Part shown: piece by piece, positions 7,248-35,030 of the stretch
Layout of the letters: each line of letters starts with the position of its first letter
How positions within the stretch are numbered: position 1 is the first letter of the stretch
DNA from: Pseudomonadota bacterium
GTDB lineage: Bacteria; Pseudomonadota; Alphaproteobacteria; Rhodospirillales; Magnetospirillaceae
Assembly: GCA_021818185.1 (NCBI GenBank)
Contig: JAKAFA010000002.1
Span: 1-37,776 of the forward strand
Length of the DNA: 37,776 nt
Direction: 5' to 3'
Made by a program: the position numbers and the translations under genes
Notes under the pieces: model-generated
What the model was told of the DNA's origin: nothing
Database searches by the model: none
What the model saw: the letters and a program-made list of their open reading frames with translations, nothing else

Positions 7248-8255
7248 TCATCCCGCGGGGCGCGCCCTGGTGAAATTCATGAATTTTCCAACCGAAATCC
7301 GCCTCGCCACCAAGAGGTGATCGACGCCCAAATGGGTGAGGCCGCCGGCCTTGTGCAGATCGGGATGGGCAAGCAAAGCGCGGATAGCGGATAGCGTCGC
7401 CGGGTGGCTCCAGATGGGCCATGCGAAGGAAAAGCCGTCTTGGCCGAAGGAACCGCCGACGATCGCGGGGCGCACCCTGCCGGCCCGCGTTTCCGGAACC
7501 AGCGGGATCGCAGCGAGGCCAACGGCGGCCAGACGATTGGCCCCGTGCTGGGTGCCACCCTTGTAGGCGGGATCGGTGGGATCACCGGCCAGGAGGGCGT
7601 AGCGCACATCCTCTTCCGGATCCCAGCGGAAGGAAAAGGTCGGGTCCCGGCGGTGCCACGGCATGAACAGGGCCTCGGCGAGGCAATCGGCGGCGGAAAG
7701 GGTAACGGCCGCCTTGCCCCTTCCGCGCGGCGGCGGGGCGGGGTCGGCGGGAACCTTCGCCAGTCTCTCCAGGAAATGCTGGTGACCCTGGCCAAACAGA
7801 AGGCACAGCGGCGTCGGATCAATGGGGGAGTTGCCGGGATGCCGGTCCTCCTTAACGGCGGCATCGCTCATCAGGGCGGCCAGCAGGTCCGCTCGCCCGC
7901 GTGCCGAGATTGTCGCGTTGCCAGCGACCTCCTCGAGCAGTCGAAGTGCCTCGTCGCGCGCGTAGTTGAGATCCTTCCGGGTCCACTGCCCCAAATCATG
8001 GTCGGCGGCAAGGACGGAAAGGCCGGCAGCGGCGGCCTCGGCGACCTCTTCCCTGGTGACCGAAACGGCAAGACACAGCAGCGGACGCAACGGTGGAGTA
8101 TCGAGGTCCCAGGCGGCTCGGGGATGACGCTTGCCGCCCTCCGGCCGATCACGGTCGGCGGCCTCCAGCGCCCTCAACACGCCGAGCAGGGCCAGGAAGG
8201 CGAGCAGATTGTCCGGTTCCAGCCCGTCGAGCCGGTGGCGGGTCGCGGCGGTCAT
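7248..8255 (-). CDS. Type I-G CRISPR-associated protein, probable Cas3-extension family
   Basis: A 335-residue protein beginning MTAATRHRLDGLEPDNLLAFLALLGVLRALE. The LEPDNLLAFLALLG-type opening followed by acidic and aromatic segments resembles proteins encoded just after cas3 in type I-G (formerly I-U) loci, annotated as the Cas3-extension family. A short Cas8-like large subunit is the alternative. I chose ATG 8255 because it overlaps the cas3 stop as ATGA, a tight coupling, while the longer ORF start lies inside cas3. Other visible features are a basic proline-rich linker (DPAPPPRGRGKA) and a His/Trp-rich patch (FMPWHRRDPTFSFRWDP). No catalytic motif is evident. It is the last gene before a gene-poor stretch, so its C-terminus could be altered by the deletion that removed the rest of the locus. 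Confidence 0.6.
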   Translation of the reverse strand: MTAATRHRLDGLEPDNLLAFLALLGVLRALEAADRDRPEGGKRHPRAAWDLDTPPLRPLLCLAVSVTREEVAEAAAAGLSVLAADHDLGQWTRKDLNYARDEALRLLEEVAGNATISARGRADLLAALMSDAAVKEDRHPGNSPIDPTPLCLLFGQGHQHFLERLAKVPADPAPPPRGRGKAAVTLSAADCLAEALFMPWHRRDPTFSFRWDPEEDVRYALLAGDPTDPAYKGGTQHGANRLAAVGLAAIPLVPETRAGRVRPAIVGGSFGQDGFSFAWPIWSHPATLSAIRALLAHPDLHKAGGLTHLGVDHLLVARRISVGKFMNFTRARPAG

Positions 8256-11233
8256 GCGGAGGCTCCATCCTCGGCCAGGCGAAGGGCTGCCTCCTCCGAA
8301 GCCCGGTGGTCGGCCAGGCGCAGGATGGCCTCCAGGCGGGCCAGTTCCCAAACGCCGTAGCGGGCCTTGAGGCATTCGTAAAGCGCGGGCCAGTCGAGGC
8401 CGTCGCGATCATAGGCCAGGGACTGGGGCCCGGCTCCGGGCGGCAGCGTTGACAACGGCAGGCCGAGTATCCCGGGCAGACCGGTGCGCGCCTCTCGGTC
8501 CTCGGGATCGGCATGGGGAAAGAAGGGACGCCCATGGCCGTGGTGGGTTCCCACCAGCCACAGCACCAGATCGGCATCTTTCGCTTCGGCGAAACGGGGG
8601 ATCAGGGGGGCCAACCGAACGGATAGTGCCTCGTGCCGCCAGTGGTCGGGCAACCGGGTGCGCGCCCTGGCCTCGCGGGGGAGCGGCCGGGCCGACTTGG
8701 CGAGGACATGGGCGGGGTCGGTGCCGAGCGGGTCACCAAAGGCCAGCCACCCCTGAAACCGTGGATCGGCCTTGCCGATGTCGTGGCAATACCCCGCCAC
8801 TTTCAGGTCAAGGACACGCTCCTCCGCCAGGCCGGCCCGCCGCGCGAACGCTTCCGCTACCGCTTCCACCTCCCGGGCGTGCCGGTCGAGCGGCAGGGCA
8901 TAGCCCGGCAGCGATCCGGCCATGTCATCCTCGGTGGCGGCGCCATGCCCATCTTCAGCGTCGCCGCCCCCTTTCAAGCCCGACCGCGCGACGAACACGA
9001 CCCCCCGCGGGCGCCCGTCCTCGTCGACGCCGTAGAGATCCGTGCGCGCCTCCACACTGCGGCGGCCTTTCCTGGCGTGATCCAGGCACCCGAGGGCCTC
9101 CCGGATGGAATCGGGCAGGGGGAGCGCGGCCACGGCATCGCGCAGATCCCGCCAGTGCCGGGTTTCGGCCCCGACGATGGCCTGGGCGAGCGCCTGGCTG
9201 CCACCGTCGTCGTCACCGGTCAGCAATCCCGGCGCCACCCGCACCGCGAAATGGCGCCCGACGAAAGGCCGAGCGGCCTTATCGGCCACATCGGCGGCCG
9301 GATCGCGGCGATCGGGGGTCCAGCCGAATTCGTCCACCCCGCCATAGGCCGCCGGAACCACCACCGCGTCGCCGGGACGAATATCCCCAGGCCGGATCCA
9401 GGCGGAGCGGTCATCGTCGCCGGCCCAGCGGAACACCGGCCTCGCTTCCGGCCGCCGCCGCGACAGCGTCGCTTCTTCGGGACCGGCGGCGGGAATGTCG
9501 GCCAGGAGGCCGGCGGTCCCGTCAGCGTCTTCAAGCCAGCGGCGCACCGCCCACACCGGCAGGTCGATGGCCTCGGCGGCCCGCGGCGGCACCAGCAGGA
9601 GAAGGCGGCGCATGCCTTCCTTCGGAACAGCGGTGTCCACGTCCGCCCGCCAGATGACGGACACCGCATCCGCGGCGCGGTCGGGGCCATGGAGATAGAG
9701 CGCCACCTCGGGATCGGCCGCGGGAACGGGCGAGGTCTGGGACAACAGGTCGAGATGGGCGGGCAACAGCACGGGGGCGTCCGGCTTGGGGGAAAGAGCG
9801 TCCTCCGGCACCGACCGCTTCGCGAAGGCGGCCAAGCCGAAATCGACGACGGCATCGGCACCTTTGCGGGGCGGGCCATCGGCGGTGCCGGTCAGATACG
9901 TCCATGCCTCTCCGGCGGCTGTGCCGTAGACCGGATCCTTGGCGTCGGCCTTGCCGCCGACGATGGCGGCGTGGGGGGTGATGTTCCGACCGGCGCGGTT
10001 GAGCCGCCCGAAGCGCTGGCGCAGGGCATCGACGGGGGCGGCGTCGGTAACGAGTCCGTCCAGGTCGATGTCCACTCCCGCCTCGACGCATTGGGTGGCG
10101 ACGATCACCAGCGGCCGGTCCAGCTCGCGTCGGCAACCGGTGCGGATCGGCTTCAGCTTGCCGGCGAGGTCGTCGCGATCCACGGGCCGGGCCGGGCCGA
10201 TCATCAGCAGCCGATCGGCGGCCTCGGCATCGAGGTGCCGGCCAAGCTCCTCAAACACCGTCCGTGCCCGCCCCACGCGGTTGACCACCACGCCGAGGGC
10301 GGAGTTCTTGTCCATGGCCATCAACGCCCGCAGCGTTTCGCCGACGATCACTTTGACTCGTCGCCGCTCTTCGGCCTGATCCGCTGCCTCGTTCCCGTCA
10401 TCGGCCTCGGCGGTCCGCATGCCGCCGAGATCGACCAGCCGGGCCGGCTTGGGGCTGTGCCAACGGGTGGCGAGAACGGGATCGGCGTAGTCCTCCGGCT
10501 CCAGGCCGACGCGGCCGCCCGCCCTGTCTCCCGGCGTGGCGGTCAACAGCGACACCCCCCAGGGGGCGGCGGCATCCGTGCATTGGCGCCAGTCGTTCTC
10601 CCGGTAGCGCCTTACCCAATGAAGCGTCTGGCGGAACGGTTCGGAGAGATGCGCCTCGTCCAGCAGGATCAGGCAGTCGGCACCGACCAGACCGGCATGA
10701 ACCGGCTTCATGCGGTCGGACACGCCGTAGCCCCGGAACAGCAGGCGCGAGCCCACCTGATCCACGGTCGAGCACAGGATGGTGGGCTGGGACGGCGTGC
10801 GGGCCCAGTCGTCCTCCCGCGGAATGCCGCCGCGCAGGCGGCGGGCGACCAGCGGCGGGGCGTCCGGCCCGGCCAGCAACCACAGGCGGTCCGCCACCCT
10901 CCCGATGACGGAATGGCCCGGATCGGCAAGGGCGTTGACGATCCTCTCCGCCCGCGCGAAGGCATCGTCCACCACCAGCCGGCGGTCCACCACCAGGGCG
11001 ATCCGCACCGGCGCCCGTCGCGCCGCTCCGCGATCGGCGTCCAGGGCGAGAGTGAATACGGCCACGTCCAACGCCGCCGTCTTGCCGAAGCCGGTGGGCA
11101 GGTCCAGCACCGCGGGCCAGGTGCCGTCCTCGGCCACCAGCCGGGCGAGCCGCGTCTGCCAGGGGAACGGCGGATGCCCATGGATCGCCTGGAAGAAGGC
11201 GGGGAAATCATCGGCCGTCAGGTCAGGGGACAT
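8252..11233 (-). CDS. cas3: Type I-G CRISPR-associated helicase-nuclease Cas3 (HD domain at C-terminus)
   Basis: A 993-residue protein that in an active system is recruited by Cascade to unwind and cut target DNA. The helicase comes first: Walker A DLPTGFGKT (~44-52), LILLDEAHL (~193), motif III LLTATPG, and motif VI QRFGRLNRAGR (~404). The HD nuclease is at the C-terminus (GYCHDIGKADPRFQGWL, ~816), followed by further metal-ligand-type His (DHWRHEALS, GTHHGHGRPFF). Helicase-then-HD order is the hallmark of type I-G/I-U Cas3, opposite to most type I systems. ATG 11233 has GGAGGG 5 nt upstream and overlaps the csb2 stop by 11 nt. All motifs I can check are intact, yet Cascade genes other than a csb2 stub are missing, so interference from this locus alone is impossible. 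Confidence 0.9.
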   Translation of the reverse strand: MSPDLTADDFPAFFQAIHGHPPFPWQTRLARLVAEDGTWPAVLDLPTGFGKTAALDVAVFTLALDADRGAARRAPVRIALVVDRRLVVDDAFARAERIVNALADPGHSVIGRVADRLWLLAGPDAPPLVARRLRGGIPREDDWARTPSQPTILCSTVDQVGSRLLFRGYGVSDRMKPVHAGLVGADCLILLDEAHLSEPFRQTLHWVRRYRENDWRQCTDAAAPWGVSLLTATPGDRAGGRVGLEPEDYADPVLATRWHSPKPARLVDLGGMRTAEADDGNEAADQAEERRRVKVIVGETLRALMAMDKNSALGVVVNRVGRARTVFEELGRHLDAEAADRLLMIGPARPVDRDDLAGKLKPIRTGCRRELDRPLVIVATQCVEAGVDIDLDGLVTDAAPVDALRQRFGRLNRAGRNITPHAAIVGGKADAKDPVYGTAAGEAWTYLTGTADGPPRKGADAVVDFGLAAFAKRSVPEDALSPKPDAPVLLPAHLDLLSQTSPVPAADPEVALYLHGPDRAADAVSVIWRADVDTAVPKEGMRRLLLLVPPRAAEAIDLPVWAVRRWLEDADGTAGLLADIPAAGPEEATLSRRRPEARPVFRWAGDDDRSAWIRPGDIRPGDAVVVPAAYGGVDEFGWTPDRRDPAADVADKAARPFVGRHFAVRVAPGLLTGDDDGGSQALAQAIVGAETRHWRDLRDAVAALPLPDSIREALGCLDHARKGRRSVEARTDLYGVDEDGRPRGVVFVARSGLKGGGDAEDGHGAATEDDMAGSLPGYALPLDRHAREVEAVAEAFARRAGLAEERVLDLKVAGYCHDIGKADPRFQGWLAFGDPLGTDPAHVLAKSARPLPREARARTRLPDHWRHEALSVRLAPLIPRFAEAKDADLVLWLVGTHHGHGRPFFPHADPEDREARTGLPGILGLPLSTLPPGAGPQSLAYDRDGLDWPALYECLKARYGVWELARLEAILRLADHRASEEAALRLAEDGASA

Positions 11234-11868
11234 GCGGGCCCTCCGCATCGACGGGGCGGCACAACCCCAGGCCGACGAACCGGCCGGCGCCCAGGATCAT
11301 CGGGCCATCCACCCGCTCGGAAAAGCGGATCACCGCATGCGTGAGCGTCCGGCTGGCGAGCGAGGTCGGCAGCCGCCAGCGCATCCAGTCGGGTGACCGG
11401 CCGGCCGGCTCTGCCGAGACCGCGCCTTCCACGGCGGAATGCTTGTCGGGAACCACGACTTGCGGGTCCGGCAGGCCGATGTTGCGGCAGGCGGCGGCGA
11501 TCTGCGCGGCGATTTCCGTCTGCCGTGCCGGCCCGTCCTGCTTCAGATGGCGATCCAGCACGATGGGGGTGACGGAGGCGAAGGTGGACGAGGTTGCGGT
11601 GTACAGGGCCGGATCGAGGGAAACCTTGGCCGGCTCCAGGGTGGGGGACAGGGTCAGCCCGAAGCGGTGGAGGCGCAACACCCGGCGTCCGGTTCCGCCG
11701 TCCATCGGAGCGATGGCGCGCAGGGCGGCACGGAAGCCGGGATCATCCATCAGCCCATCGGCGGACGGCGCCAGGGCAAAGCCCAGAATCCGGCCATCGG
11801 CATGGGGGAAGCCGGCGAAGGCCAGCGGCACGATGGCAAGGTGAGGCGCCCGCGTCGGGCGGCCATCT
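11223..11868 (-). pseudogene. csb2: csb2 (type I-G Cas5/Cas6-like), 5' end missing
   Basis: The reading frame carries the C-terminal part of a Csb2/GSU0054-type protein. It begins near DGRPTRAPHLAIVPLAFAG, continues through HADGRILGFALA, and ends with the Gly-rich RAMP-type loop GAGRFVGLGLCRP. Csb2 fuses Cas5 and Cas6 roles (crRNA processing and Cascade assembly) and is normally about twice this long. The track ORF starts at a GTG (11831), but recognisable homology continues upstream in frame to about 11868. Beyond that the DNA becomes the repeat-protein fragment read on the other strand. There is no sensible start codon or ribosome site at the break. I therefore call it truncated by recombination. 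It is coupled to cas3 by an 11-nt overlap. Confidence 0.75.
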
Positions 11869-15214: not shown

Positions 15215-15685
15215 ATGCGCCGCGGCCAGGTCGATCGGACGGCACTCGCCGCCGAGCTGGCAGGCCTCCCCCATCTCGCTGATGCAGACCTCCGGAGCCG
15301 CTGGAGGGATCTGTTCGGCCACCCGCCGCCCCGGCTCGGCAGGGGTCTGCTGGCGGCTGCGGTTGCCTACCGCCTGCAGGAGAAGGCCCTGGGTGGGCTC
15401 AAGCCGTCGGTGCGCCGGATGTTGGCCCAAGCGGCCGGACATGCCGCTGCCGGCCGACCGGTGGCACCGCCGCCGCCCATCGCCAAGGCCGGCACCTGTC
15501 TGATCCGGCAATGGCATGGTGAGGTGCACGAGGTGGCGGTGTTGGACGACGGCGCGCTGTATCGGGGTGAGCGCTACCGCTCACTGTCGCAGGTGGCGCG
15601 CGCCATCACCGGGGTGCGTTGGTCGGGACCGCGCTTTTTCGGCCTCCAGGGCAAGGAGGCTGCCGATGCCGCCGACCAAGCCTAA
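15215..15685 (+). CDS. DUF2924 domain protein of a recombinase module
   Basis: A 156-residue basic protein. The first half (LRSRWRDLFGHPPPRLGRGLLAAAVAYRLQ) is the DUF2924 signature region. The second half (GTCLIRQWHGEVHEVAVLDDG and YRSLSQVARAITGVRWSGPRFFGL) resembles the small DNA-binding modules that accompany recombinases. It starts 3 nt after the DUF3489 stop, and its last 20 nt overlap the recombinase start, so all three genes are probably co-translated. The biochemical function of the family is not established. Association with recombination is inferred from conserved neighbourhood. Confidence 0.85.
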   Translation: MRRGQVDRTALAAELAGLPHLADADLRSRWRDLFGHPPPRLGRGLLAAAVAYRLQEKALGGLKPSVRRMLAQAAGHAAAGRPVAPPPPIAKAGTCLIRQWHGEVHEVAVLDDGALYRGERYRSLSQVARAITGVRWSGPRFFGLQGKEAADAADQA

Positions 15686-17342
15686 CCCCAAACGGTGCGC
15701 CGTCTACACCCGCAAGTCTTCCGAGGAAGGACTGGAGCAGGACTTCAACTCGCTCCATGCCCAGCGCGAATCCTGCGAAGCCTTCATCAGGAGCCAGAAG
15801 GCGGAGGGCTGGCGGCTGGTGGAGGCCGCCTACGACGACGGCGGCTTCTCGGGCGGGACCATGGACCGCCCCGCCCTGCAGCGCCTCCTGGCCGACATCA
15901 AGGCCCGGCGCATCGACGTGGTGGTGGTCTACAAGATCGACCGCCTGACCCGCGCTTTGGCCGACTTTGCCAAGATGGTCGAGGTGTTCGACGCCCATTC
16001 CGTCTCCTTCGTGGCGGTGACCCAGCAGTTCAACACCACCACCTCGATGGGCCGGCTCACCCTCAACATCCTGCTGTCCTTCGCCCAGTTCGAGCGCGAG
16101 GTCACCGCCGAGCGCATTCGCGACAAGATCGCCGCCTCGAAGAGGAAGGGAATGTGGATGGGGGGCGTGGTGCCCTTGGGCTACGACGTCGAGGACCGCC
16201 GGCTGGTGGTCAATACGGCCGAGGCCGCGACGGTGCGCACCATCTTCCGCCGCTACCTCGACCTCGGCTGCGTGCGGCGGCTGGCCGAGAATCTGGAGCG
16301 GGATGGTATCCGCTCCAAGCGGCACACCGGCAAGCGATGTGGCGGCACCGTCCTCGGCCGCGGCGCGCTCTACACCCTGCTCGCCAATCCCCTCTATGTC
16401 GGCGAGGTGCGCTACTGCAAGGCCACCTATCCCGGCCTGCACGAGGCGATCATCGAGCGGGAGCAATGGGACGAGGTGCAGCGGATGCTGGCCGGCAACG
16501 GCGTCACCCGCGCCATGCGCCCTACCAGGGTCGCCCCCAGCCCGTTGGCCGGCAAGCTCTACGATGGCAACGGTGAGCGCCTGACCCCCAGCCACACGGT
16601 CAAGGCTGCGCGGCGCTACCGCTACTACGTATCCCATCCGCTCATCACCGGCACCGTCGATCAGGCTCCCGAGCGATGGCGGTTGCCGGCGCAGGAGGTG
16701 GAAAACGCCGTCGGCGAAGCCTTGTCCGGCATCCTCGCCGACCGCGCGGGCCTGGCCACAGCGATGCGCGCCGCCGGCTTGGCGCTGGAGAAGCTATCGG
16801 CGGTGTTCGCCGCGGCCGCCGCTTGGCGCAAGAGGGTGGAAGCCGGCACCGAAGCCCCTGCGGCGGTGGCGGCCATCGTCGAGCGGGTCGAGGTGCGGGA
16901 CGATGGGCTGCTGCTGACGGTGTCGCTGGCGGCGCTCTTGCAGCCGGAGGCGATCGTCACCGATGTCGAGGCGCTCACCATCACCCGCGCCATCCCCATG
17001 CAGCTGAAGCGGCGCGGCTGCGAGATGCGTCTCGTGGTCGATGGCGCCGGCCCATTGCCCAAGGTCGATCCCGCCCTGATCAAGGCCCTCGCCCGAGCGA
17101 GGGCGTGGTTTGACGAACTGGCCAGCGGCGCGATGCCGTCGCTGGCCGCCATCGCCCGGCGCGAGGGCATCACCGACCGCTACATCGGCCAGCTCCTGCC
17201 GCTGGCTTTCCTCGCCCCCGACCTTGTCGCGGCGATCGTCGCCGGCACCCAGCCGGTCGGCCTCACCGCCGAAACCCTCATCCGGCACATCGACCTGCCG
17301 GCCGATTGGGGCGAGCAGCGCCGCGCCCTCGGGTTCGGCTGA
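15666..17342 (+). CDS. Large serine recombinase (resolvase/invertase family)
   Basis: A 558-residue site-specific recombinase. The N-terminal resolvase domain has CAVYTRKSSEEGLEQDFNSL, which contains the catalytic Ser region, followed by VVVYKIDRLTRALADF and an ERIRDKIAASKRKG linker. A Recombinase domain follows (MGGVVPLGYDVEDR, TLLANPLYVGEVRY), then a variable C-terminus with a likely second DNA-binding part. The Cys-rich zinc ribbon common in large serine integrases is not obvious. I chose ATG 15666, which has AAGGAGG 6 nt upstream; the track ORF's first 50 residues are a shadow of the DUF2924 gene. The gene ends ~250 nt from tRNA-Ser. It probably mobilised this island, but I cannot identify att sites. 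Confidence 0.92.
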   Translation: MPPTKPNPKRCAVYTRKSSEEGLEQDFNSLHAQRESCEAFIRSQKAEGWRLVEAAYDDGGFSGGTMDRPALQRLLADIKARRIDVVVVYKIDRLTRALADFAKMVEVFDAHSVSFVAVTQQFNTTTSMGRLTLNILLSFAQFEREVTAERIRDKIAASKRKGMWMGGVVPLGYDVEDRRLVVNTAEAATVRTIFRRYLDLGCVRRLAENLERDGIRSKRHTGKRCGGTVLGRGALYTLLANPLYVGEVRYCKATYPGLHEAIIEREQWDEVQRMLAGNGVTRAMRPTRVAPSPLAGKLYDGNGERLTPSHTVKAARRYRYYVSHPLITGTVDQAPERWRLPAQEVENAVGEALSGILADRAGLATAMRAAGLALEKLSAVFAAAAAWRKRVEAGTEAPAAVAAIVERVEVRDDGLLLTVSLAALLQPEAIVTDVEALTITRAIPMQLKRRGCEMRLVVDGAGPLPKVDPALIKALARARAWFDELASGAMPSLAAIARREGITDRYIGQLLPLAFLAPDLVAAIVAGTQPVGLTAETLIRHIDLPADWGEQRRALGFG

Positions 17343-17590
17343 TTTCCCATCTTTCGGCGGGCCTCTTTCCGCCACTCCGCACGGGGGCAAGCGCGTCGTG
17401 TTGCCAGCGTGCGCGTTCGGGTATTCGGTCGACCCGAAGCGGCAAAGTGGCAAACGGAGAAAACGGGAGCGGGCAGCGCCGATGGGGGAGGGATCGCGCC
17501 GGTCTCCCCTTCGGGTGAGCCCGCAGACATGGCCGGACGGCCGCCCTTGCGGCCGCTTACACAGATGATCTGCGCGCTACCGCAAAAGAA

Positions 17591-17683
17591 TGGCGGAGGG
17601 GGAGGGATTCGAACCCTCGGTAGGGGTTTACCCCCTACGACGGTTTAGCAAACCGTTGGTTTAAGCCACTCACCCACCCCTCC
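17591..17683 (-). tRNA. tRNA-Ser (anticodon GCU)
   Basis: The minus strand folds as a class II tRNA. The acceptor arms are GGAGGGG and CCCCTCC with an encoded CCA. The D-arm begins GGTGAGTGGC. The anticodon stem-loop ACGGT-TTGCTAA-ACCGT has anticodon GCT. A long variable arm (TAGGGGG with CCCCCTA) and T-arm GAGGG-TTCGAAT-CCCTC complete it. It decodes AGC/AGU. Lying beside a recombinase gene, it may mark an island boundary, although I found no duplicate of its 3' end in the window. Confidence 0.95.
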
Positions 17684-27491: not shown

Positions 27492-28634
27492 CTAGCGCTC
27501 GCCGATATCGGTGACCACGCCGATGATTCCGACCGGCCGCCCCTCATCGTCCAGATAGGCCGTCTTGCTGACCAGGGCATGGATGCGCCGCTGGTCGGGC
27601 GTGGTGAACGCCGCCTCGAAGGTGATGCGCTCGACGCGGCCGGCCAGCAGGTCGCGGTCACTTTCGGGCAGGGCGGGATCTTCCAGCCGGGCCGGATCGC
27701 CGATCAGATCGTGAAACGCCCGGTTGGCGACCTCGAACCGCCCACAGGCGTCGCAGTACCACACCGGGTTGGGAAGCAGTTCCACCAGCTTTTCGGTGAA
27801 ACGCCGCGCCGCCGCTGCGGCAGCGCCGTGCCGCAGCGTCACGACCGCGCGGTTGTGGGCGGTGATGTCGCGGGCCTCCACCATCAGTTCCAACCCGTGG
27901 CGGGTCGGCAGACGGGCGATCCGCACCATGGCGTCCACGGTCCCCCCATCGTCGCGCCGCAGGCGCATGGGCAGAGCCACCCCCTCGCCGATGGCACTTT
28001 CCAGCGCCTCGCCCACCACCACTTCGGCATAGGGACCGGCGAACAGGGCGGCAAGCGGCCGGCCGACCACCGCGGCGGCGCCGGCCGCCCCCAGCATCCG
28101 CACGCCCGCCGGATTGACATAGCGGACCAGGCCGTCCAGCACGTGGCAGACCAGATTCATCGCATTATCGACCAGCAGGGTGAACCGCGTTCCGCGATCC
28201 CTGGCCGTATCGGCCGGCCGGCCTTCGGCGGTGATGTCGCGGCCGGTCACCACCGCCGCGTCGGGAGCGATTTCGCGGGCCCGGTACACGCGCAGTTCCA
28301 CCGCCTTGACCGAATGATCCAGGGCGATGATACGGGTGGGGGTGGGCGAATCGTCGGCCCGGTTGCCCCCCAGGAAGCGTTCAATCACTTGGCTGTATTC
28401 GGGGATCAGGAAGTCGGACAGACGGCGGCCGCGCACCTCTTCGCTGGAGGTGGCGCCCAGCAGGCGGAGGCCGGCCCCGTTGATGGCGACGATCAGCCCG
28501 CCGCGGCACAGGCAGACCAGATCCCGCGAGACCTCCAGAATGCTCATCAGGCTGCCGTCGAAGCGCGGTCCCCGACGCCTGCGCTCGCTGGCGAAATCGA
28601 CGACGTTGCCGCCAGCCCTGCCGATGGTCGTCAC
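27492..28634 (-). CDS. Multi-PAS sensor protein without an output domain
   Basis: A 380-residue cytoplasmic protein made of three PAS-like domains. PAS1 (~25-135) has LEVSRDLVCLCRGG and ends VVTGRDIT. PAS2 (~148-265) has LLVDNAMNLVCHVLDGLVRYVNPAG and ends MVEARDIT. PAS3 (~280-380) has LVELLPNPVWYCDACGRFEVANRAF and ends GIIGVVTDIGER. Each closes with the PAC-type '(R/T)DI(T/G)' ending. There is no kinase, GGDEF, EAL or DNA-binding domain and no membrane helix. It must act through a partner, perhaps one of the kinases encoded nearby. The start is GTG with GGGGAGGGAG upstream. It lies divergent from the SiaA-type phosphatase gene with a ~200-nt shared control region. Confidence 0.82.
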   Translation of the reverse strand: MTTIGRAGGNVVDFASERRRRGPRFDGSLMSILEVSRDLVCLCRGGLIVAINGAGLRLLGATSSEEVRGRRLSDFLIPEYSQVIERFLGGNRADDSPTPTRIIALDHSVKAVELRVYRAREIAPDAAVVTGRDITAEGRPADTARDRGTRFTLLVDNAMNLVCHVLDGLVRYVNPAGVRMLGAAGAAAVVGRPLAALFAGPYAEVVVGEALESAIGEGVALPMRLRRDDGGTVDAMVRIARLPTRHGLELMVEARDITAHNRAVVTLRHGAAAAAARRFTEKLVELLPNPVWYCDACGRFEVANRAFHDLIGDPARLEDPALPESDRDLLAGRVERITFEAAFTTPDQRRIHALVSKTAYLDDEGRPVGIIGVVTDIGER

Positions 28635-28831: not shown

Positions 28832-30520
28832 GTGCACACCTCGCGCATCGATCCGGCCCCCGTAGCATCCGGCGGCTTCACGCCGCCCTTGCTGGACCGC
28901 CTGTCGGTCAAGCAGGCGGTCGCCACCCTGGCCATCGCCCTGCTGCTGGGCATCGCCGCCGGCGGCTGGGACCTGATGAGCGATTTCCGTGCGCAGCACG
29001 AGGCGGTGCGCCAGCGCGCGGCCGCCAACCTGATGCTGGTCCACGGCCTGGCCGTCGAAGCGGCGTTCCAGATGTCCAACGACTTGGCCGGTGAAGTGGT
29101 GCGCGGCCTGGCCGCCGACGATGCCGTGGCGGAAGTGGTCTTGAGCGACAATTACGGCGACGAGCTGGGCGCGGTGAAACGCCAGCCCGCACGCAGCCCC
29201 TTTCCCGGCCTGGCCGTCCGGCTGTTCGGCGACGTCGCCCACCAGGATCTGATTCTGGAAGGCCGGGCTCCCGACGGGTCCACCGCCACGGTGGGCCGGC
29301 TGCGGCTGCGGCTTGACCCCAACCGGCTGCTTGACCGCTTCCTGTCGCGGCTGCTGGCCACCATCCTGAGCGGTGCGGCCCGTGCCGCCCTGCTCTGCGG
29401 GCTGGTGGTTGCGGTGTTCTATGGGCTGATCACCAAGCCGTTGCTGAAGATCACCACGGCGATCGCCACCGTCGATCCGTCGCAGCCCGGCGCCCGCCCC
29501 ATCGCGGTGCCCAAGCGGCACGAGCGGGACGAGCTCGGGTTGCTGGCCGCCACCGTCAACCGCCTGCTGGCGCAGTCCCAAGCCGGCTTGGACGGTCGCG
29601 ACCGGGCCGAGGCCGAACTGGCCGCCTTGGCCCGCGACCTGGAACGCCGGGTCGCTGAACGCACCGCCGAGTTGGCCCGCGAGAAGGAGGCGGTCGAACG
29701 GACCAACGGCGAGTTGGAGCGGGCCAACCGCTACGTCAACGACGGCATCCGTTACGCCAGCCGCATCCAGACGGCGTTGCTGCCCGAGGCCGGCGCCCTG
29801 GACGGGGTGGTGGCCGAACTGGCCGGCGGCTGGCAGCCTCTCGATATGGTGGGGGGTGACTATTATTGGATGGGGCGGTTCGGCCCCCAGGGGGTGATCG
29901 CGGTGTTCGACTGCACCGGGCACGGCGTGCCGGGGGCGTTCATGACCGCGGTGGCGGCCTCGGCCCTGGCCCGCGTGCTGCACCACCATGGGCATGACGA
30001 TCCGGGCGAGATTCTGACCCAGCTCAACCGCCTGATGCGCTCGGCCCTGCGCCAGGACCGCGAGGGCGCGGTATCCAACGACGGGCTGGATGCCGCCGTC
30101 TGTGTGGTCGATGCCGGTCGCGGTCGGATCCGCTTCGCCGGCGCCAACCTGCCGCTGCTGCTGCGCCAGGCCGGTCAGTTTCGTCTGGTTCGCGGCGACC
30201 GCATGAGCCTGGGCTATGTCGAAACTCCCGGCGATTACCGCTTCACCGGCCACGACATCGCCATTGCGCCGGGCGAGTCCTGCTATCTGTTCACCGACGG
30301 GGTGACCGACCAGGTGGGCGGCCCCAGCCGGCGGCTGTTCGGGCGTAACCGGTTGATCGCGGCACTGGGCGAACTGGCCGACCTGTCCCTGGAAGACCAG
30401 ATGGGCGCCCTGTTCCACCGGCTGGCGGAATGGCGGGGAACCGAGGCCAGGCGCGACGACATGACCTTCCTGGCCTTCCGCCCGTTGCCCGTCCTCCCTC
30501 CGGCCGACGCGGCGGGGTGA
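28832..30520 (+). CDS. siaA: SiaA-type membrane PP2C/SpoIIE phosphatase with HAMP domain
   Basis: A 562-residue sensor phosphatase. Helix 1 (AVATLAIALLLGIAAGG, ~30-47) is followed by a ~130-residue periplasmic sensor, then helix 2 (ALLCGLVVAVFYGLIT, ~188-203). A HAMP region (TKPLLKITTAIATV) and a coiled coil (LARDLERRVAERTAELAREKEA) follow. The catalytic PP2C domain has metal-binding residues in GGDYYW (~340), DCTGHGVPGAF (~360), FTDGVTDQ and RRDDMTFLAF. This is the architecture of Pseudomonas SiaA, which dephosphorylates SiaC. SiaB- and SiaC-like genes lie 1-3.7 kb away, convergent with it. The phosphatase probably counters the SiaB-type kinase on the SiaC-type protein. Start is GTG with a weak ribosome site. 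The symbol is by architecture and context. Confidence 0.82.
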   Translation: MHTSRIDPAPVASGGFTPPLLDRLSVKQAVATLAIALLLGIAAGGWDLMSDFRAQHEAVRQRAAANLMLVHGLAVEAAFQMSNDLAGEVVRGLAADDAVAEVVLSDNYGDELGAVKRQPARSPFPGLAVRLFGDVAHQDLILEGRAPDGSTATVGRLRLRLDPNRLLDRFLSRLLATILSGAARAALLCGLVVAVFYGLITKPLLKITTAIATVDPSQPGARPIAVPKRHERDELGLLAATVNRLLAQSQAGLDGRDRAEAELAALARDLERRVAERTAELAREKEAVERTNGELERANRYVNDGIRYASRIQTALLPEAGALDGVVAELAGGWQPLDMVGGDYYWMGRFGPQGVIAVFDCTGHGVPGAFMTAVAASALARVLHHHGHDDPGEILTQLNRLMRSALRQDREGAVSNDGLDAAVCVVDAGRGRIRFAGANLPLLLRQAGQFRLVRGDRMSLGYVETPGDYRFTGHDIAIAPGESCYLFTDGVTDQVGGPSRRLFGRNRLIAALGELADLSLEDQMGALFHRLAEWRGTEARRDDMTFLAFRPLPVLPPADAAG

Positions 30521-30529
30521 GGCCCCCGC

Positions 30530-31570
30530 TCAGGCTCCGTCCACCGCGATCGGCAGGGTGAGGACGAATTCCGCCCCCTGGCCCGCCCGGCCGGTCACCG
30601 CGACACTCCCCCGCAGCGGGCCGGTGACCAGATTATAGACGATGTGCAGCCCCAGGCCGCTGCCCCCCGTGCCGCGCCGCGTCGTGAAGAACGGGTCGAA
30701 GACCCGGCCGCGATATTCCTCGGCGATGCCCTTGCCGTCGTCGTGATAGACGATGCGGACGGTATCGGCGCGCGGACGCTCGACGACGATGGTCAGCTGG
30801 CCGGACATGCCGTCGTCGTAGGCATGGATGATGGAGTTCATCACCAGATTGGTCAGCACCTGCGACAACGCCCCGGGATAGGAATCCATGATCGTTCCGG
30901 GCGGGCAGGCGACCGTCATCCGATGGCCGGCCTGACGCAGGCGCGGGCCCAGGCTGACCAGGGTCTCGGCGATGGTGGCGGCCAGATCGAAGGTCCGCCG
31001 CTCGGAACTGGTCCGGTCCACCGCCACTTGCTTGAAACTGCGGATCAACTCGGCGGCCCGTTCGCAATTGGCCAGGATCAGCGCTGCGGTGTCGGCGGCG
31101 GTGGCCAGATAGGTTTCGAAATCATCGATGCCCACATCGTCGGCCCGGTACAGCGCCGACAGCCGGCCGGTGGCGTCGGCCAGGTGCGAGGCGCAGGACA
31201 GGGCGATGCCGACCGGGGTGTTGATCTCGTGGGCGACACCGCCGACCAGGGCGCCGAGCGACGCCAGCTTTTCCGCCTGGACCAGCGTCTCCTGCGCCTC
31301 GGTGAGGCGGGCGAGCGCCTCTTCCGCCTGGGCGGTTCGGCCGGCCAGTTCCTGGTTCAGGCTGGCCAGCTGAGCCTGCTGCCGGTCGCTCAGCTTGACC
31401 AGCCGGCGCTGCTCGCGGATGCTTTTGCCATAAGCCTTGACCAGGGCTTCGACGCCGGCGCGGCATTCCAGCGAGGCATCGCCCAGGTGCTCCGCCAGGG
31501 TGCGCCCCTCGGCGAGAATCCGTTCCTCGGCATCGAACAGGTTGAAGCCGGACGAATCGGACTCGGTCAC
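30530..31570 (-). CDS. Soluble histidine kinase coupled to SiaC
   Basis: A 346-residue cytoplasmic histidine kinase. Residues ~1-60 are helical (ILAEGRTLAEHLGDASLECR, YGKSIREQRRLVKLSDRQQ), with a coiled coil to ~100. The HisKA-type helix is LASLGALVGGVAHEINTPVG with phospho-acceptor His114. The ATPase domain has the N-box (LTNLVMNSIIHAYDDG), G1 (DDGKGIAEEYRGRVFDPFFTT) and G2 (GGSGLGLHIVYNLV). There is no transmembrane or PAS sensor. Its GTG start overlaps the siaC stop (GTGA), so the two proteins are made together. In Pseudomonas this position encodes the diguanylate cyclase SiaD. I infer that the N-terminal helical region is the SiaC docking site. Its response regulator is not assigned; an OmpR-type one lies 2.3 kb upstream. 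Confidence 0.88.
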   Translation of the reverse strand: MTESDSSGFNLFDAEERILAEGRTLAEHLGDASLECRAGVEALVKAYGKSIREQRRLVKLSDRQQAQLASLNQELAGRTAQAEEALARLTEAQETLVQAEKLASLGALVGGVAHEINTPVGIALSCASHLADATGRLSALYRADDVGIDDFETYLATAADTAALILANCERAAELIRSFKQVAVDRTSSERRTFDLAATIAETLVSLGPRLRQAGHRMTVACPPGTIMDSYPGALSQVLTNLVMNSIIHAYDDGMSGQLTIVVERPRADTVRIVYHDDGKGIAEEYRGRVFDPFFTTRRGTGGSGLGLHIVYNLVTGPLRGSVAVTGRAGQGAEFVLTLPIAVDGA

Positions 31571-31962
31571 TCGGCGGCCGCGTCGGCTGCGACGAGGTTG
31601 AACGCCAGATGCTCAAGATCCTCGGAAAAATCCTCGCCGAATTCCCGTAGCGTCTCGTCGTCGGGGGCGAACCGCCAGTTGACCACCAGGCGCACACCCG
31701 ACGCGGCGGCCCGGTCCAGCATCTGGAACAGGTTCATCAGCGCCTTGGCGCTGGAACTGTTGAAATAGATCATCTCGATGTCGAACCGGATGTCGCGTCC
31801 CGCCGCCCCGGCGAGGAAGGGGTCGAGCGCCCCGAAAATCGGGCCGAACACCCGCGAGGCATCCTCGGGATAGGATTCCCCGCTGAGGCGGAGGATGCCG
31901 GCAGCGAAGTCGAAATCGACTTCGGGCGAACGTTCCGTAGCGGGAATGTGCAGCTTGTCCAT
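31567..31962 (-). CDS. siaC: SiaC-family regulatory phosphoprotein (DUF1987)
   Basis: A 131-residue protein, MDKLHIPATERSPEVDFDFAAG followed by LRLSGESYPEDASRVFGPIF. It matches SiaC/DUF1987, whose hallmarks are the GESYPE and YFN(T/S)SSAK motifs. In Pseudomonas, SiaB phosphorylates a Thr in the second motif, SiaA removes the phosphate, and the dephospho form binds and activates SiaD. Here the motif reads EMIYFNSSSAKALM, so the acceptor position is Ser69 instead of Thr. The C-terminal GEDFSEDLEHLAFNL segment is also typical. It starts 6 nt after the siaB stop with GAGG upstream, and its end overlaps the histidine kinase start. Confidence 0.88.
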   Translation of the reverse strand: MDKLHIPATERSPEVDFDFAAGILRLSGESYPEDASRVFGPIFGALDPFLAGAAGRDIRFDIEMIYFNSSSAKALMNLFQMLDRAAASGVRLVVNWRFAPDDETLREFGEDFSEDLEHLAFNLVAADAAAE

Positions 31963-31968
31963 GGGGCC

Positions 31969-32520
31969 TCAGATGGAAACTTTCAGGCAGAAGAAGGAAA
32001 CATGCTCGTCCACCGGGTCGAAGTCGAATTCGATCGGCTCGCTGGCCCGCCGCGCGATCTCGATCAGCCCGATGGTGGCGCCGCGGCTGTTCTCGTCGGG
32101 GGCTTCGCGCAATTGTTCCTTGTAATATGCCTTGATCTGCTCGCGCCCCATTCCCTTCAGCAGCTCCAGCCGTCCGCGCAGGCGGGCGACATCCTCCTGC
32201 CGCACCATGTTGGCGCAGACGATGAAGAATTTCCCATCCTGGGTCCCGATGGTGACCATGCCGGAGGATAGTTCAATATTGGCGCCATCCGGCCCCGTCA
32301 CTTTGTCGGCAGAATATCGGATGATATTTTGGGATTGCTCGATGAAAACCGAAAATACCTTCTTGACGGTTGTGACGTTGGTTTCTTCCAATGTCATCTT
32401 CTGCCGCAACGCTTCTCCGAGGGAATACAGGATCGATTCGGACAGATAGCCCGAGAAGGAGAAGATAATTCCTTCCTCATCAAGGACATGCTTGAAGGAT
32501 CGGTAGTGTCGCGCGAGCAT
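31969..32520 (-). CDS. siaB: SiaB-family protein kinase (DUF6272, divergent GHKL)
   Basis: A 183-residue protein resembling SiaB: IIFSFSGYLSESILYSLGEALRQKM, then VFSVFIEQSQNIIRYSAD as a degenerate N-box, a glycine-containing segment (SSGMVTIGTQDGKFFIVCANMV), and a long helix (DVARLRGRLELLKGMGREQIKAYYKEQLRE). It ends SRGATIGLIEIARRASEPIEFDF, the likely nucleotide-lid/G-box region. The family phosphorylates SiaC. AAAGGAA precedes the ATG. A 69-nt gap with two stem-loops separates it from the REC-kinase gene upstream, so siaB-siaC-kinase may be a sub-operon. Base composition is more AT-rich at the N-terminal half than nearby genes. Confidence 0.82.
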   Translation of the reverse strand: MLARHYRSFKHVLDEEGIIFSFSGYLSESILYSLGEALRQKMTLEETNVTTVKKVFSVFIEQSQNIIRYSADKVTGPDGANIELSSGMVTIGTQDGKFFIVCANMVRQEDVARLRGRLELLKGMGREQIKAYYKEQLREAPDENSRGATIGLIEIARRASEPIEFDFDPVDEHVSFFCLKVSI

Positions 32521-32589: not shown

Positions 32590-33894
32590 TCATCCACCCG
32601 AGGCCGTGGCGCCGGCCGGTGCCCGGCGCAGCCGCACGCTAAAGGTCGTTCCCTCGTCGGGGCGGCTGGTCACGCCGATGCTGCCGCCATGGAGTTCGAC
32701 AATCTGCCGCGCCATATGCAGGCCGATGCCCGACCCACCGACGGTCCCGACATTGGCGCCGCGATGGAATCGCTCGAAGACCCGCGGCAGATCGGCGGCG
32801 GGAATGCCGATGCCGCGGTCGCGGACCTGGACGCACAGCATGCCGGCGACCTCGGCTGTGACGACCTCGACGGGGCTGCGCTCCGGTGAGTACTTGACGG
32901 CGTTGCCCACCAGATTGGCGAAGACCAGCCCCAGCAGCCCGGCATCGCCCCAGGCGGCCGGCAGCGAGGTGGCCTGCAACCGAATGTCGCGATCGGGGGT
33001 GACGGCCCGCTGCTGCTCGACCGCCGCCACCACCACTGCGCCCAGGTCGACGGCCGCCTCGTGCAGGACGATGCTGCCGCTCTCCAACTGCTCGTCGGAC
33101 AGGCAGGTATCGATCAGGCCGATGAGGCGGGCCACCGCGCCGCGAATCGAGCCCAGCCGGGGCGCGAGGCCTTCGCCGCCGTCCAGCCGCCCGGCGCGCA
33201 TCAGCAGCATTTGCGCCGCGGAATCGATGATGGCCAGCGGGGTGCGGAATTCGTGGGACATCATCGACAGGAACTGCCGCAACTGCCGTTTCGCTTCGCT
33301 TTCCCGGGCCAAGGCCACCTCGGCGGCATTCTTGGCATGGCCCAGCGCCTCGGTGCGCTCCGCCACCCGCCGTTCGAGGGACGCGTTGAGCTCGGCCAGT
33401 TCATCGGCCAGGGCGGACACCCGCACGATTTCGCGCCAGGCCCGCACGGCGCCCACCAAGGCGGTGAACAGCTTGGCCGCCGTCAACTCGGTCTTGTTCT
33501 TATAGTCGTTGATGTCGTAGGCCAGCATCACGTCCCGTTCCGGGGCTTCGCCCGGCTGGCCGGTGCGCAGGATGATGCGCAGCCGCCGGTTGCCCAGGTC
33601 GTCGCGGATGCGCCGCACCAGATCAAGGCCGGCCGCGGCGGTTTCCATCACCACGTCGATCAGCGCTACGGGGAAGTCGGAATCGGCGGCCAGAACGGCG
33701 GCGGCTTCGGCCGCGGAGCGCGCCGACACCATGGCGAACGGCCGCCCTTCGAAGGTGAAATCACGCAGCAGCACCCCGGTCATGGCGTGCACCTGTTCGT
33801 CGTCGTCCACCACCAGCACCCGCCAGGGCCGCGCCGGTCTTTCGCCGCCGACGGGCCGTGCCGGCTTGAGGACGAGCTTGCCGCCGGTACTCAT
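32590..33894 (-). CDS. Receiver-histidine kinase (REC-HisKA-HATPase)
   Basis: A 434-residue soluble kinase with an N-terminal receiver domain. The receiver (~25-150) has VLVVDDDEQVH, the phospho-Asp in ALIDVVME (~78), ILRTGQPG, and the conserved Lys in NDYKNKTEL. A coiled coil (LNASLERRVAERTEALGHA) leads to HisKA (FLSMMSHEFRTPLAIIDSA, His ~212). The ATPase domain has NLVGNAVKYSPE, DRGIGIPAADLPRVFERF and GGSGIGLHMARQIVELHGG. The receiver-first layout with the NDYKNKTEL motif resembles the receivers paired with DUF3369 in other regulators. The ATG overlaps the OmpR-type regulator stop (ATGA), so these two are a cognate pair. The long track start would lie inside that regulator. Confidence 0.92.
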   Translation of the reverse strand: MSTGGKLVLKPARPVGGERPARPWRVLVVDDDEQVHAMTGVLLRDFTFEGRPFAMVSARSAAEAAAVLAADSDFPVALIDVVMETAAAGLDLVRRIRDDLGNRRLRIILRTGQPGEAPERDVMLAYDINDYKNKTELTAAKLFTALVGAVRAWREIVRVSALADELAELNASLERRVAERTEALGHAKNAAEVALARESEAKRQLRQFLSMMSHEFRTPLAIIDSAAQMLLMRAGRLDGGEGLAPRLGSIRGAVARLIGLIDTCLSDEQLESGSIVLHEAAVDLGAVVVAAVEQQRAVTPDRDIRLQATSLPAAWGDAGLLGLVFANLVGNAVKYSPERSPVEVVTAEVAGMLCVQVRDRGIGIPAADLPRVFERFHRGANVGTVGGSGIGLHMARQIVELHGGSIGVTSRPDEGTTFSVRLRRAPAGATASGG

Positions 33895-34601
33895 CCCTTT
33901 GCCGCCACCGGGGCGGTAAAGGCGTAGCCGGTGCCGTGGACCGCCTCGATGGGAATCGGGCCGCCCATCGCCTCTTCGCATTTGGCCCGCAGCCGGCGCA
34001 CCATGGAATCCACCGAGCGGTCGAGCGGGTCCCACTGGCGCTTGCCCAGCGCCGCATAGATATCGGCCCGCGTCACCGGCTCGCCCGGGCGGGCGACCAG
34101 AAGAGACACGAAGACCCGCTCGTTGCCGGTCAGCTTGACGGCCACGCCGTCCGGCGAGTTCAGCGTCCAGGCCAGGCGGTCGTAAACCCAGGCGGATGCC
34201 CGCGCCGGCGCGGCCGGCGGCGGAGCGTCTTCGGCAGGCAGGCGCAGGCGGCGGGCCAGGGCGCGCACCTGCGCCTCCAACTCGCGCAGTTCCACCGGCT
34301 TGACCATGTAGACGTCGGCCCCCAGTTCCAGGCCGACCACCCGGTCGACGCTGAGCCCGCGGGCGGTCAGCATGATGATGCCGACCGCCGCCCGCTCACG
34401 CAGCCGCGAGGCGATGGCGAACCCGCTTTCACCGGGCAGGTTGACGTCCAGCACGACGATTTCCACAGGGGCCTGGGCGAGCACCCGATCAAGGGCGGGG
34501 CCGCCGTCGCAGCCCCAGGCCCGGTGGCCGCTGGCCTCAAGGTACTCCACCAGATCGGCGCGCAGCGAATCCTCGTCCTCGACGACAGCGATGCAGGCCA
34601 T
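33891..34601 (-). CDS. OmpR/PhoB-family response regulator
   Basis: A 236-residue transcription regulator. The receiver has the acidic pair in VVEDED, phospho-Asp52 in VVLDVNLPGESG, Thr in IIMLTARG and Lys in YMVKPVELREL. After a Pro/Ala-rich linker comes a winged-helix DNA-binding domain (LTGNERVFVSLLVARPGEPVTRADIY, then DRSVDSMVRRLRAKCEEA and VHGTGYAFTAP). I start at MACIAVVEDED with GGGGA ~8 nt upstream; the track start five codons earlier is equally possible. The gene is coupled to the REC-kinase. Its targets are unknown and no repeat-type operator is evident nearby. Confidence 0.92.
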   Translation of the reverse strand: MACIAVVEDEDSLRADLVEYLEASGHRAWGCDGGPALDRVLAQAPVEIVVLDVNLPGESGFAIASRLRERAAVGIIMLTARGLSVDRVVGLELGADVYMVKPVELRELEAQVRALARRLRLPAEDAPPPAAPARASAWVYDRLAWTLNSPDGVAVKLTGNERVFVSLLVARPGEPVTRADIYAALGKRQWDPLDRSVDSMVRRLRAKCEEAMGGPIPIEAVHGTGYAFTAPVAAKG

Positions 34602-34661
34602 GACGGTATTCCCCATGAGCGAGTTTCCCCACCCGAGGAAGCCTTAGACAGAAGCGTCCCG

Positions 34662-35030
34662 TCAAATACCTTGTTCATTGGCCCGCGGCACGATGATCTT
34701 TTCCAGCAGTCGCACCAGCAGGCGATCCATGCGCGCCGCCCAGTGGTCGTCGGTCTCGATCATGTCGCGGCAGCGGCGGAAGGCGCGCAGCACGGTGGTG
34801 TGGCTGCGGCCGCCGAAGATGCGCCCCAGCTCGGGCAGCGAGCAGCCGGTCAACAGCCGGGTGTAATACATGGCGGCCATCCGCGGCCGCCAGACGCCGT
34901 GGCCGCGGCAATGCGCCATCATCTCCGTCTCGGTCAGGCCGAATTCCTCGGCCACGGCGGCCAGGATCTCGGTCACCAGCGGGTCGCGCGAGGCCTGGCG
35001 GAGCGGGGTATGGATTTGGGTGGCGTTCAT
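34662..35030 (-). CDS. Stand-alone DnaA domain IV-like DNA-binding protein
   Basis: A 122-residue protein that is essentially only the C-terminal DNA-binding domain of DnaA. VTEILAAVAEEFGLTETEMM is the first helix, VWRPRMAAMYYTRLLTG the basic loop and recognition region, and CSLPELGRIFGGRSHTTVLRAFRRC corresponds to the DnaA signature (usually GGRDHTTV). The AAA+ ATPase and DnaB-contact domains are absent, so it cannot melt an origin. It could compete for or mask DnaA boxes, or act as a transcription factor. The start ATG has GGTGCCGCC only, a weak ribosome site. It is upstream of the OmpR-type regulator on the same strand with a ~60-nt gap, preceded by a ~180-nt lower-GC region that may hold the promoter. 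Not a full-length dnaA gene. Confidence 0.88.
   Translation of the reverse strand: MNATQIHTPLRQASRDPLVTEILAAVAEEFGLTETEMMAHCRGHGVWRPRMAAMYYTRLLTGCSLPELGRIFGGRSHTTVLRAFRRCRDMIETDDHWAARMDRLLVRLLEKIIVPRANEQGI

Follow-up and report, generated by a model that had tools for sequence, protein, structure and literature searches.

A SiaA-SiaB-SiaC Partner Switch with a Probable Histidine Kinase Output in a Pseudomonadota Bacterium

The sia Locus

The stretch of DNA analyzed here, called the window, is contig JAKAFA010000002.1, positions 1 to 37,776, from a Pseudomonadota genome of 3.85 Mb (362 contigs, 95% complete). The locus under study, positions 28832-32520, carries homologues of siaA, siaB, and siaC, and a gene for a soluble histidine kinase (HK) directly follows siaC. 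In P. aeruginosa, SiaB phosphorylates and SiaA dephosphorylates the adaptor SiaC, with Thr68 as the phosphosite (PMC7647112), and unphosphorylated SiaC activates the diguanylate cyclase SiaD (PMC8457831), an enzyme that produces the biofilm signal cyclic di-GMP. In the window, an HK probably takes the place of SiaD as the output of this switch. The closest named siaC loci are those of Magnetospirillum-type Rhodospirillales. The features of the locus are as follows.

28832..30520 (+): siaA-like PP2C phosphatase, 562 amino acids; SpoIIE 2.4e-27, NF038263 213 bits, PDB 6k4e E=3.7e-43
30530..31570 (-): soluble HK, 346 amino acids, GTG start, proposed SiaC-controlled output; HATPase_c 2.6e-21
31229..31231 (-): predicted phosphoacceptor His114 of the HK (GGVAHEINTP); invariant in a 12-row HK alignment
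31346..31546 (-): N-terminal docking module of the HK, residues 9-75; alignment of 35 proteins, profile match 9.4e-28
31376..31408 (-): predicted SiaC-docking motif RRLVKLSDRQQ, HK residues 55-65; in register with the SiaD motif
31567..31962 (-): siaC, STAS-like phosphoprotein adaptor, 131 amino acids; PF09345 3.2e-39, PDB 6kko/7e6g family
31756..31758 (-): predicted SiaC phosphosite Ser69 (P. aeruginosa Thr68) in YFNSSSAK; mapped to P. aeruginosa SiaC (PMC7647112)
31969..32520 (-): siaB kinase, 183 amino acids; NF038262 214 bits, PDB 6kko_A E=2.1e-20

An initial annotation made from the sequence had placed the four genes here, and Pfam and NCBIfam matches confirmed all of them. It was also right that the GTG start of the HK gene (31570) overlaps the siaC stop (31567-31569), by 4 bp, and that GGDEF genes are absent: none was found near the siaABC/HK locus in the gene calls or by Pfam. 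The siaA gene is convergent with the siaB-siaC-HK run and does not belong to the same operon. Promoter and terminator scans gave matches at chance level.

SiaC belongs to the DUF1987 family (PF09345, 133.8 bits, cut-off 24.5) and scores 90.7 bits against the narrower NCBIfam SiaC equivalog, below its cut-off of 150. Its closest solved structures are 6kko and 6k4f (profile match to PDB SiaC, E=8e-41), and a genome-wide search found exactly one SiaC and no further copies. SiaB, encoded next to siaC, is a member of the SiaB family (NF038262, 214.4 bits, cut-off 85), falls below the cut-off of the Pseudomonas SiaB equivalog (114.6 bits, cut-off 225), and is closest to 6kko among solved structures. 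The residue at SiaC position 68 in P. aeruginosa numbering, Ser69 here and predicted to be phosphorylatable, is Ser or Thr in 23/23 homologues. Across these homologues, which represent four output types, the contact residues Y31, Y65, N67, S69, M75, and D114 are invariant, and D29 and E110 show D/E exchanges only. A natural SiaC fusion was considered for a long open frame (G229) and rejected; it is an ordinary siaA-like/siaB/siaC run.

SiaA consists of a membrane sensor part, a weak HAMP, a coiled linker, and a PP2C domain. The initial annotation had described a PP2C phosphatase with HAMP; the PP2C domain stands, while the HAMP stays below its cut-off (18.4 versus 25 bits). The match to the SiaA equivalog NF038263 is also below the cut-off (700 bits) and is confined to residues 263-550. 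The N-terminal half is unlike that of Pseudomonas SiaA, and the closest solved structure is the PP2C domain of Pseudomonas SiaA (6k4e). Among the 61 relatives described below, the genomes with SiaA-like phosphatases (E<=1e-30) are exactly the 37 that carry siaC; in Magnetospirillum, the phosphatase genes usually do not adjoin it. The same genome encodes a second SiaA-type phosphatase (L151:5700-7379, G000 contig C244), a soluble PAS-PAS-PP2C protein whose PP2C part is 69% identical to that of SiaA in the window. Its presence suggests a second input into the single SiaC. A PAS-only protein adjoins siaA (27492-28634, -), with three PAS stretches and no output domain; at its start, it is similar to the PAS part of that phosphatase.

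A Predicted SiaC-Docking Motif in the Stalk of the Kinase

In the crystal structure of SiaC with SiaD, SiaC contacts the SiaD stalk at two motifs, and its T68 inserts between the stalk helices and forms hydrogen bonds with S82 and Q86. Phosphorylation of T68 prevents this binding, and the S82A/Q86A changes in SiaD weaken both the complex with SiaC and biofilm formation (PMC8457831). The segment RRLVKLSDRQQ of the HK, which the initial annotation had proposed as the docking site, coincides with this crystallographic motif. S61, D62, R63, and Q65 of the HK are identical to S82, D83, R84, and Q86 of SiaD, and R56, L57, K59, and L60 are conservative replacements of K77, V78, R80, and I81. The helical stalk of the HK carries an ISDRxQ-type motif (KLSDRQQ) in register with SiaD. 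The alignment with SiaD that the annotation had suggested was made with profiles of 15 kinase N-termini and 8 Pseudomonas-type SiaD stalks. The motif register was recovered unguided with a score of 29.6, which was reached by none of 100 column shuffles (maximum 22.5), by the reversed profile (17.1), or by unrelated kinase linkers (8.9). The match of the HK N-terminal module to those of other siaC-linked GGDEF proteins is far stronger than that to SiaD (99.7%, E=2.8e-25 in the profile comparison).

The rest of the protein is a conserved HK. The H-box (GGVAHEINTP), N-box, G1, and G2 identify it as HisKA-type, although the Pfam HisKA model itself gives no score. The catalytic residues H114, N245, D277xGxG (D277/G279/G281), and GxGLGL (G302-G307 region) are kept in 12 orthologues. 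Full-length matches to the HK are siaC-adjacent kinases, whereas homologues of the kinase core found elsewhere, including in siaC-less genomes, start only past the module that bears the motif or align with little of it.

Two constructs were folded: a read-through of siaC, its stop, and the HK gene from a Magnetospirillum fulvum locus (in frame, with the one stop read as Trp), and a short construct of SiaC with the N-terminal module. In the read-through model, both parts are well folded, and residues 162-270 form one continuous helix that spans the motif and leads into the phosphoacceptor helix. The Foldseek matches are HK853, ZraS, and LvrB for the kinase part and 6kko for SiaC (template-modeling score 0.95 by the target's length).

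Co-Occurrence of the Module with siaC

A profile of the N-terminal module was searched genome-wide in 61 relatives (E<1e-10) and in 398 genomes of the phylum, where the best 14 candidates per genome were scored. The module was found in 33/37 relatives with siaC and in 0/24 without it, and 32 of its 38 copies in the relatives lie within 200 bp of a siaC. Four siaC-bearing relatives have no strong match. Two of them (G025 and G029) have a Pseudomonas-type siaD after siaC, and G029 as well as G020 has a weak match adjoining siaC. In the phylum sample, the module occurs in 47/53 genomes with siaC and in 2/345 without it, both borderline. These genomes are not independent, and adjacency is partly built into a profile made from siaC neighbors; the informative part of the counts is the absence from siaC-less genomes. 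Some genomes of the phylum also have several module proteins away from siaC, which suggests fan-out.

In the genome of the window, the profile finds exactly one copy of the module, on the HK (9.4e-28), and genome-wide searches found no SiaD-type stalk and no SiaD. The best SiaD candidate, a globin-coupled diguanylate cyclase, was rejected, since it lacks the motif. Two of the outcomes that the initial annotation had named as speaking against its wiring of SiaC to the HK were looked for, a SiaD-type cyclase elsewhere as the partner and co-occurrence no better than chance. Neither was found; the single SiaC is matched by a single module, on the HK, and co-occurrence is far above chance. The wiring interpretation is partly supported. 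The motif match, the co-occurrence, and the lack of SiaD elsewhere give it strong comparative backing; the docking, its dependence on dephosphorylation, the activation, and the phosphotransfer target are its predicted parts.

One Module with Four Classes of Output

The gene after siaC was classified by sequence motif at 95 distinct loci. It encodes a GGDEF protein at 41, an HK at 35, an HD-GYP protein at 9, and a class III cyclase at 8, and 2 fall in no class. A Pfam scan of ten proteins confirmed the output-domain class of 9 (two class III cyclases, four GAF/HD-GYP proteins, two GGDEF proteins, and the second kinase of locus L104); the tenth is the receiver-PAS-GGDEF protein of locus L055. 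The module begins with an LFxxE-like segment and contains RLVRxSDR, of which all 35 aligned representatives from the four classes keep the S-D-R triplet unchanged. The initial annotation had overlooked that, judged by sequence, at least four output types, the HK among them, have the same module. Class III nucleotide cyclases or GAF/HD-GYP proteins with this SDR module follow siaC at L010, L014, L016, L018, L030, L072, L092, and L093, and at L009, L017, L065, L068, L108, and L109. On a SiaC tree, the output types are clustered, with 11 changes against a shuffled mean of 43.7 and 0/200 shuffles as low; the tree is built on 127 columns and is weakly resolved, and no number or direction of output swaps is read from it.

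The Receiver Domain Linked to the Kinase

The same-strand run extends upstream of siaB with the following features.

32590..33894 (-): receiver-HisKA-HATPase hybrid kinase, proposed phosphotransfer target; Response_reg 5.3e-06, HisKA 1.4e-10, HATPase_c 2.7e-28
33490..33819 (-): receiver domain of the hybrid kinase; homologue in 35/36 HK-type loci, 1/44 other siaC loci
33891..34616 (-): OmpR-type response regulator, proposed downstream output; Response_reg 2.2e-18, Trans_reg_C 1.8e-13

The ATG of the hybrid kinase overlaps the stop of the OmpR-type regulator gene, which most relatives also have upstream of siaB. At least 36 loci have an HK orthologue after siaC, and the HK-type loci belong to Magnetospirillum, Azospirillum, and their kin. 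Among 80 named siaC loci (36 HK-type and 44 others), a homologue of the receiver lies near siaC in all but one of the HK-type loci and in a single other locus. At this locus, L104, a separate kinase is encoded whose N-terminus is related. Since the receiver accompanies the HK in this way, it is the most likely phosphotransfer target.

Conservation is confined to the receiver (57-81% identity), and its partner domain varies. In the window and most relatives, it is joined to HisKA-HATPase, with an additional domain in Azospirillum and Telmatospirillum. Loci of M. fulvum, Paramagnetospirillum, and Terasakiella encode a receiver-PAS-GGDEF protein directly after the kinase; loci with such a gene directly downstream of the SiaC-linked kinase are L035, L038-L040, L042-L045, L048, and L055. 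In these relatives, the pathway may return to cyclic di-GMP (c-di-GMP) by an indirect route. Both the conserved receiver that accompanies the HK type and the GGDEF domain that some relatives appear to regain in this way had escaped the initial annotation.

Proposed Mechanism and Alternatives

We propose a SiaA-SiaB-SiaC partner switch in which an HK replaces the diguanylate cyclase SiaD as the output, and we assign this reading a probability of about 0.72. Its basis lies in sequence: gene content, motif, conservation, co-occurrence, and synteny. By analogy with Pseudomonas, SiaB would phosphorylate SiaC at the predicted Ser69, and SiaA, probably together with the second, soluble PAS-PP2C phosphatase, would remove the phosphate. 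Unphosphorylated SiaC would then bind the SDR motif in the N-terminal helical stalk of the HK as it does on SiaD, as suggested by the conservation of the motif and of the SiaC contact face. Binding would alter the state of the stalk, which leads straight into the phosphoacceptor helix, and thereby shift HK activity, presumably toward activation as with SiaD. The HK would pass its phosphate from His to Asp, most likely on the receiver of the hybrid kinase, with the OmpR-type regulator as the next step, as their linkage suggests. SiaC-HK binding, its phosphorylation dependence, the direction of control, and the phosphotransfer chain are the inferred parts of this scheme.

Several observations weigh against it. 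Four of the 13 SiaD contact positions are lost in the HK (R74E, M88Q, R90A, and D91S), Y85 is replaced by Q, and a single motif in the HK stands against two in SiaD. The siaA gene is convergent in the window and unlinked to siaC in most Magnetospirillum. The structure models, with a predicted template-modeling score of 0.42 for the read-through and 0.69 for the short construct, have no bearing on docking, and the predicted local distance difference test value of the short construct is slightly lower at the motif (88) than in its flanks (94-98). Finally, the direction of SiaC control is not fixed by sequence. The same motif and co-occurrence would also be seen if SiaC docked on the stalk to inhibit or sequester the HK or to flip it from kinase to phosphatase, or if the HK fed back on SiaB/SiaC; in the model, the stalk is one helix into the DHp region, and binding could set either register. 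We consider such non-activating control unlikely, given that SiaD, the sole characterized case, is activated by unphosphorylated SiaC (PMC8457831).

The lost contacts bear on a further explanation, in which the module does not bind SiaC at all but is a dimerization or SiaB-binding domain that spread with siaBC, with the kinase co-expressed and free of direct SiaC control. This explanation is improbable, because the most conserved residues of the module are those that contact SiaC T68 in the SiaD structure, the SiaC contact face is invariant across output classes, and the module hardly ever occurs without siaC. Least plausible of all is that SiaC chiefly controls a diguanylate cyclase elsewhere in the genome, leaving the HK as a passenger or second target. 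The P. aeruginosa partner is indeed SiaD, two relatives of the same family (L021 and L023) have a Pseudomonas-type siaC-siaD, and a gene may be missing from a 362-contig assembly. Against this stand the 95% completeness of a genome whose only module is on the HK and whose best SiaD match lacks the motif, as well as the recurrence of HK orthologues after siaC.

On a broader level, SiaC is probably a general adaptor, and the docking stalk a mobile N-terminal plug that has been coupled repeatedly to diguanylate cyclases, HD-GYP proteins, class III cyclases, and HKs. The kinase version would join a Ser/Thr phospho-switch directly to a His-Asp phosphorelay, in bacteria of the Magnetospirillum and Azospirillum type. 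If this is true, the SDR stalk motif predicts SiaC-controlled enzymes from sequence, across c-di-GMP synthesis, HD-GYP proteins, nucleotide cyclases, and two-component systems, and Ser/Thr phosphorylation has a defined route to control an HK.

Relation to Known Systems

The locus shares with the SiaABCD system of P. aeruginosa (PMC8457831, PMC7647112) the SiaA PP2C domain, the SiaB kinase, the SiaC adaptor with its phosphosite position and contact face, and the SDR motif in a helical stalk of the post-siaC gene product. It differs in its output, an HK with one copy of the motif, in the Ser that SiaC has in place of Thr68, in the convergent siaA, and in the linkage of the module to a receiver-kinase hybrid and an OmpR-type regulator. 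In the gram-negative stressosome loci (RsbRSTX), a partner switch likewise feeds varied outputs, two-component proteins among them, and some of the outputs share an N-terminal docking domain (RsbU_N-like) (PMC9237108). There, however, the adaptor is the kinase RsbT and the docking domain is RsbU_N, and most downstream proteins, including a Vibrio two-component protein, lack RsbU_N and show no interaction (PMC9237108), whereas nearly every siaC neighbor examined carries the SDR module. HsbA-HsbD of P. aeruginosa and BgrV-BgrR of S. meliloti (named in PMC8457831) also involve a STAS-fold phosphoprotein that is released by a kinase/phosphatase pair and binds a signaling enzyme, but their targets are diguanylate cyclases and their adaptors are STAS proteins, not SiaC/DUF1987.

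SiaC/DUF1987 proteins are widespread, and the only target characterized in the literature that we found is a diguanylate cyclase. Only the SiaC-SiaD structure paper turned up for DUF1987, and its authors propose that modulating adjacent proteins is a general role of the DUF1987 family (PMC8457831). Searches for SiaC with an HK and for SiaC in Magnetospirillum or Azospirillum found no description of SiaC with an HK or of the shared module, in a literature in which subscription journals are thinly covered; within it, the view of the initial annotation that a SiaC-to-HK pathway is undescribed holds.

Other Features of the Window

Just upstream of the OmpR-type regulator, a small protein (34662-35030, -) consists mostly of a DnaA C-terminal DNA-binding domain, and the same position is kept in many relatives. 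Farther away, Type I-G CRISPR-associated genes at 7248-11248 (-) encode a Cas3-extension family protein and a Cas3-like protein. A large serine recombinase of 608 amino acids (15516-17683) ends close to a tRNA-Ser(GCT) gene and may mark an integrated element.

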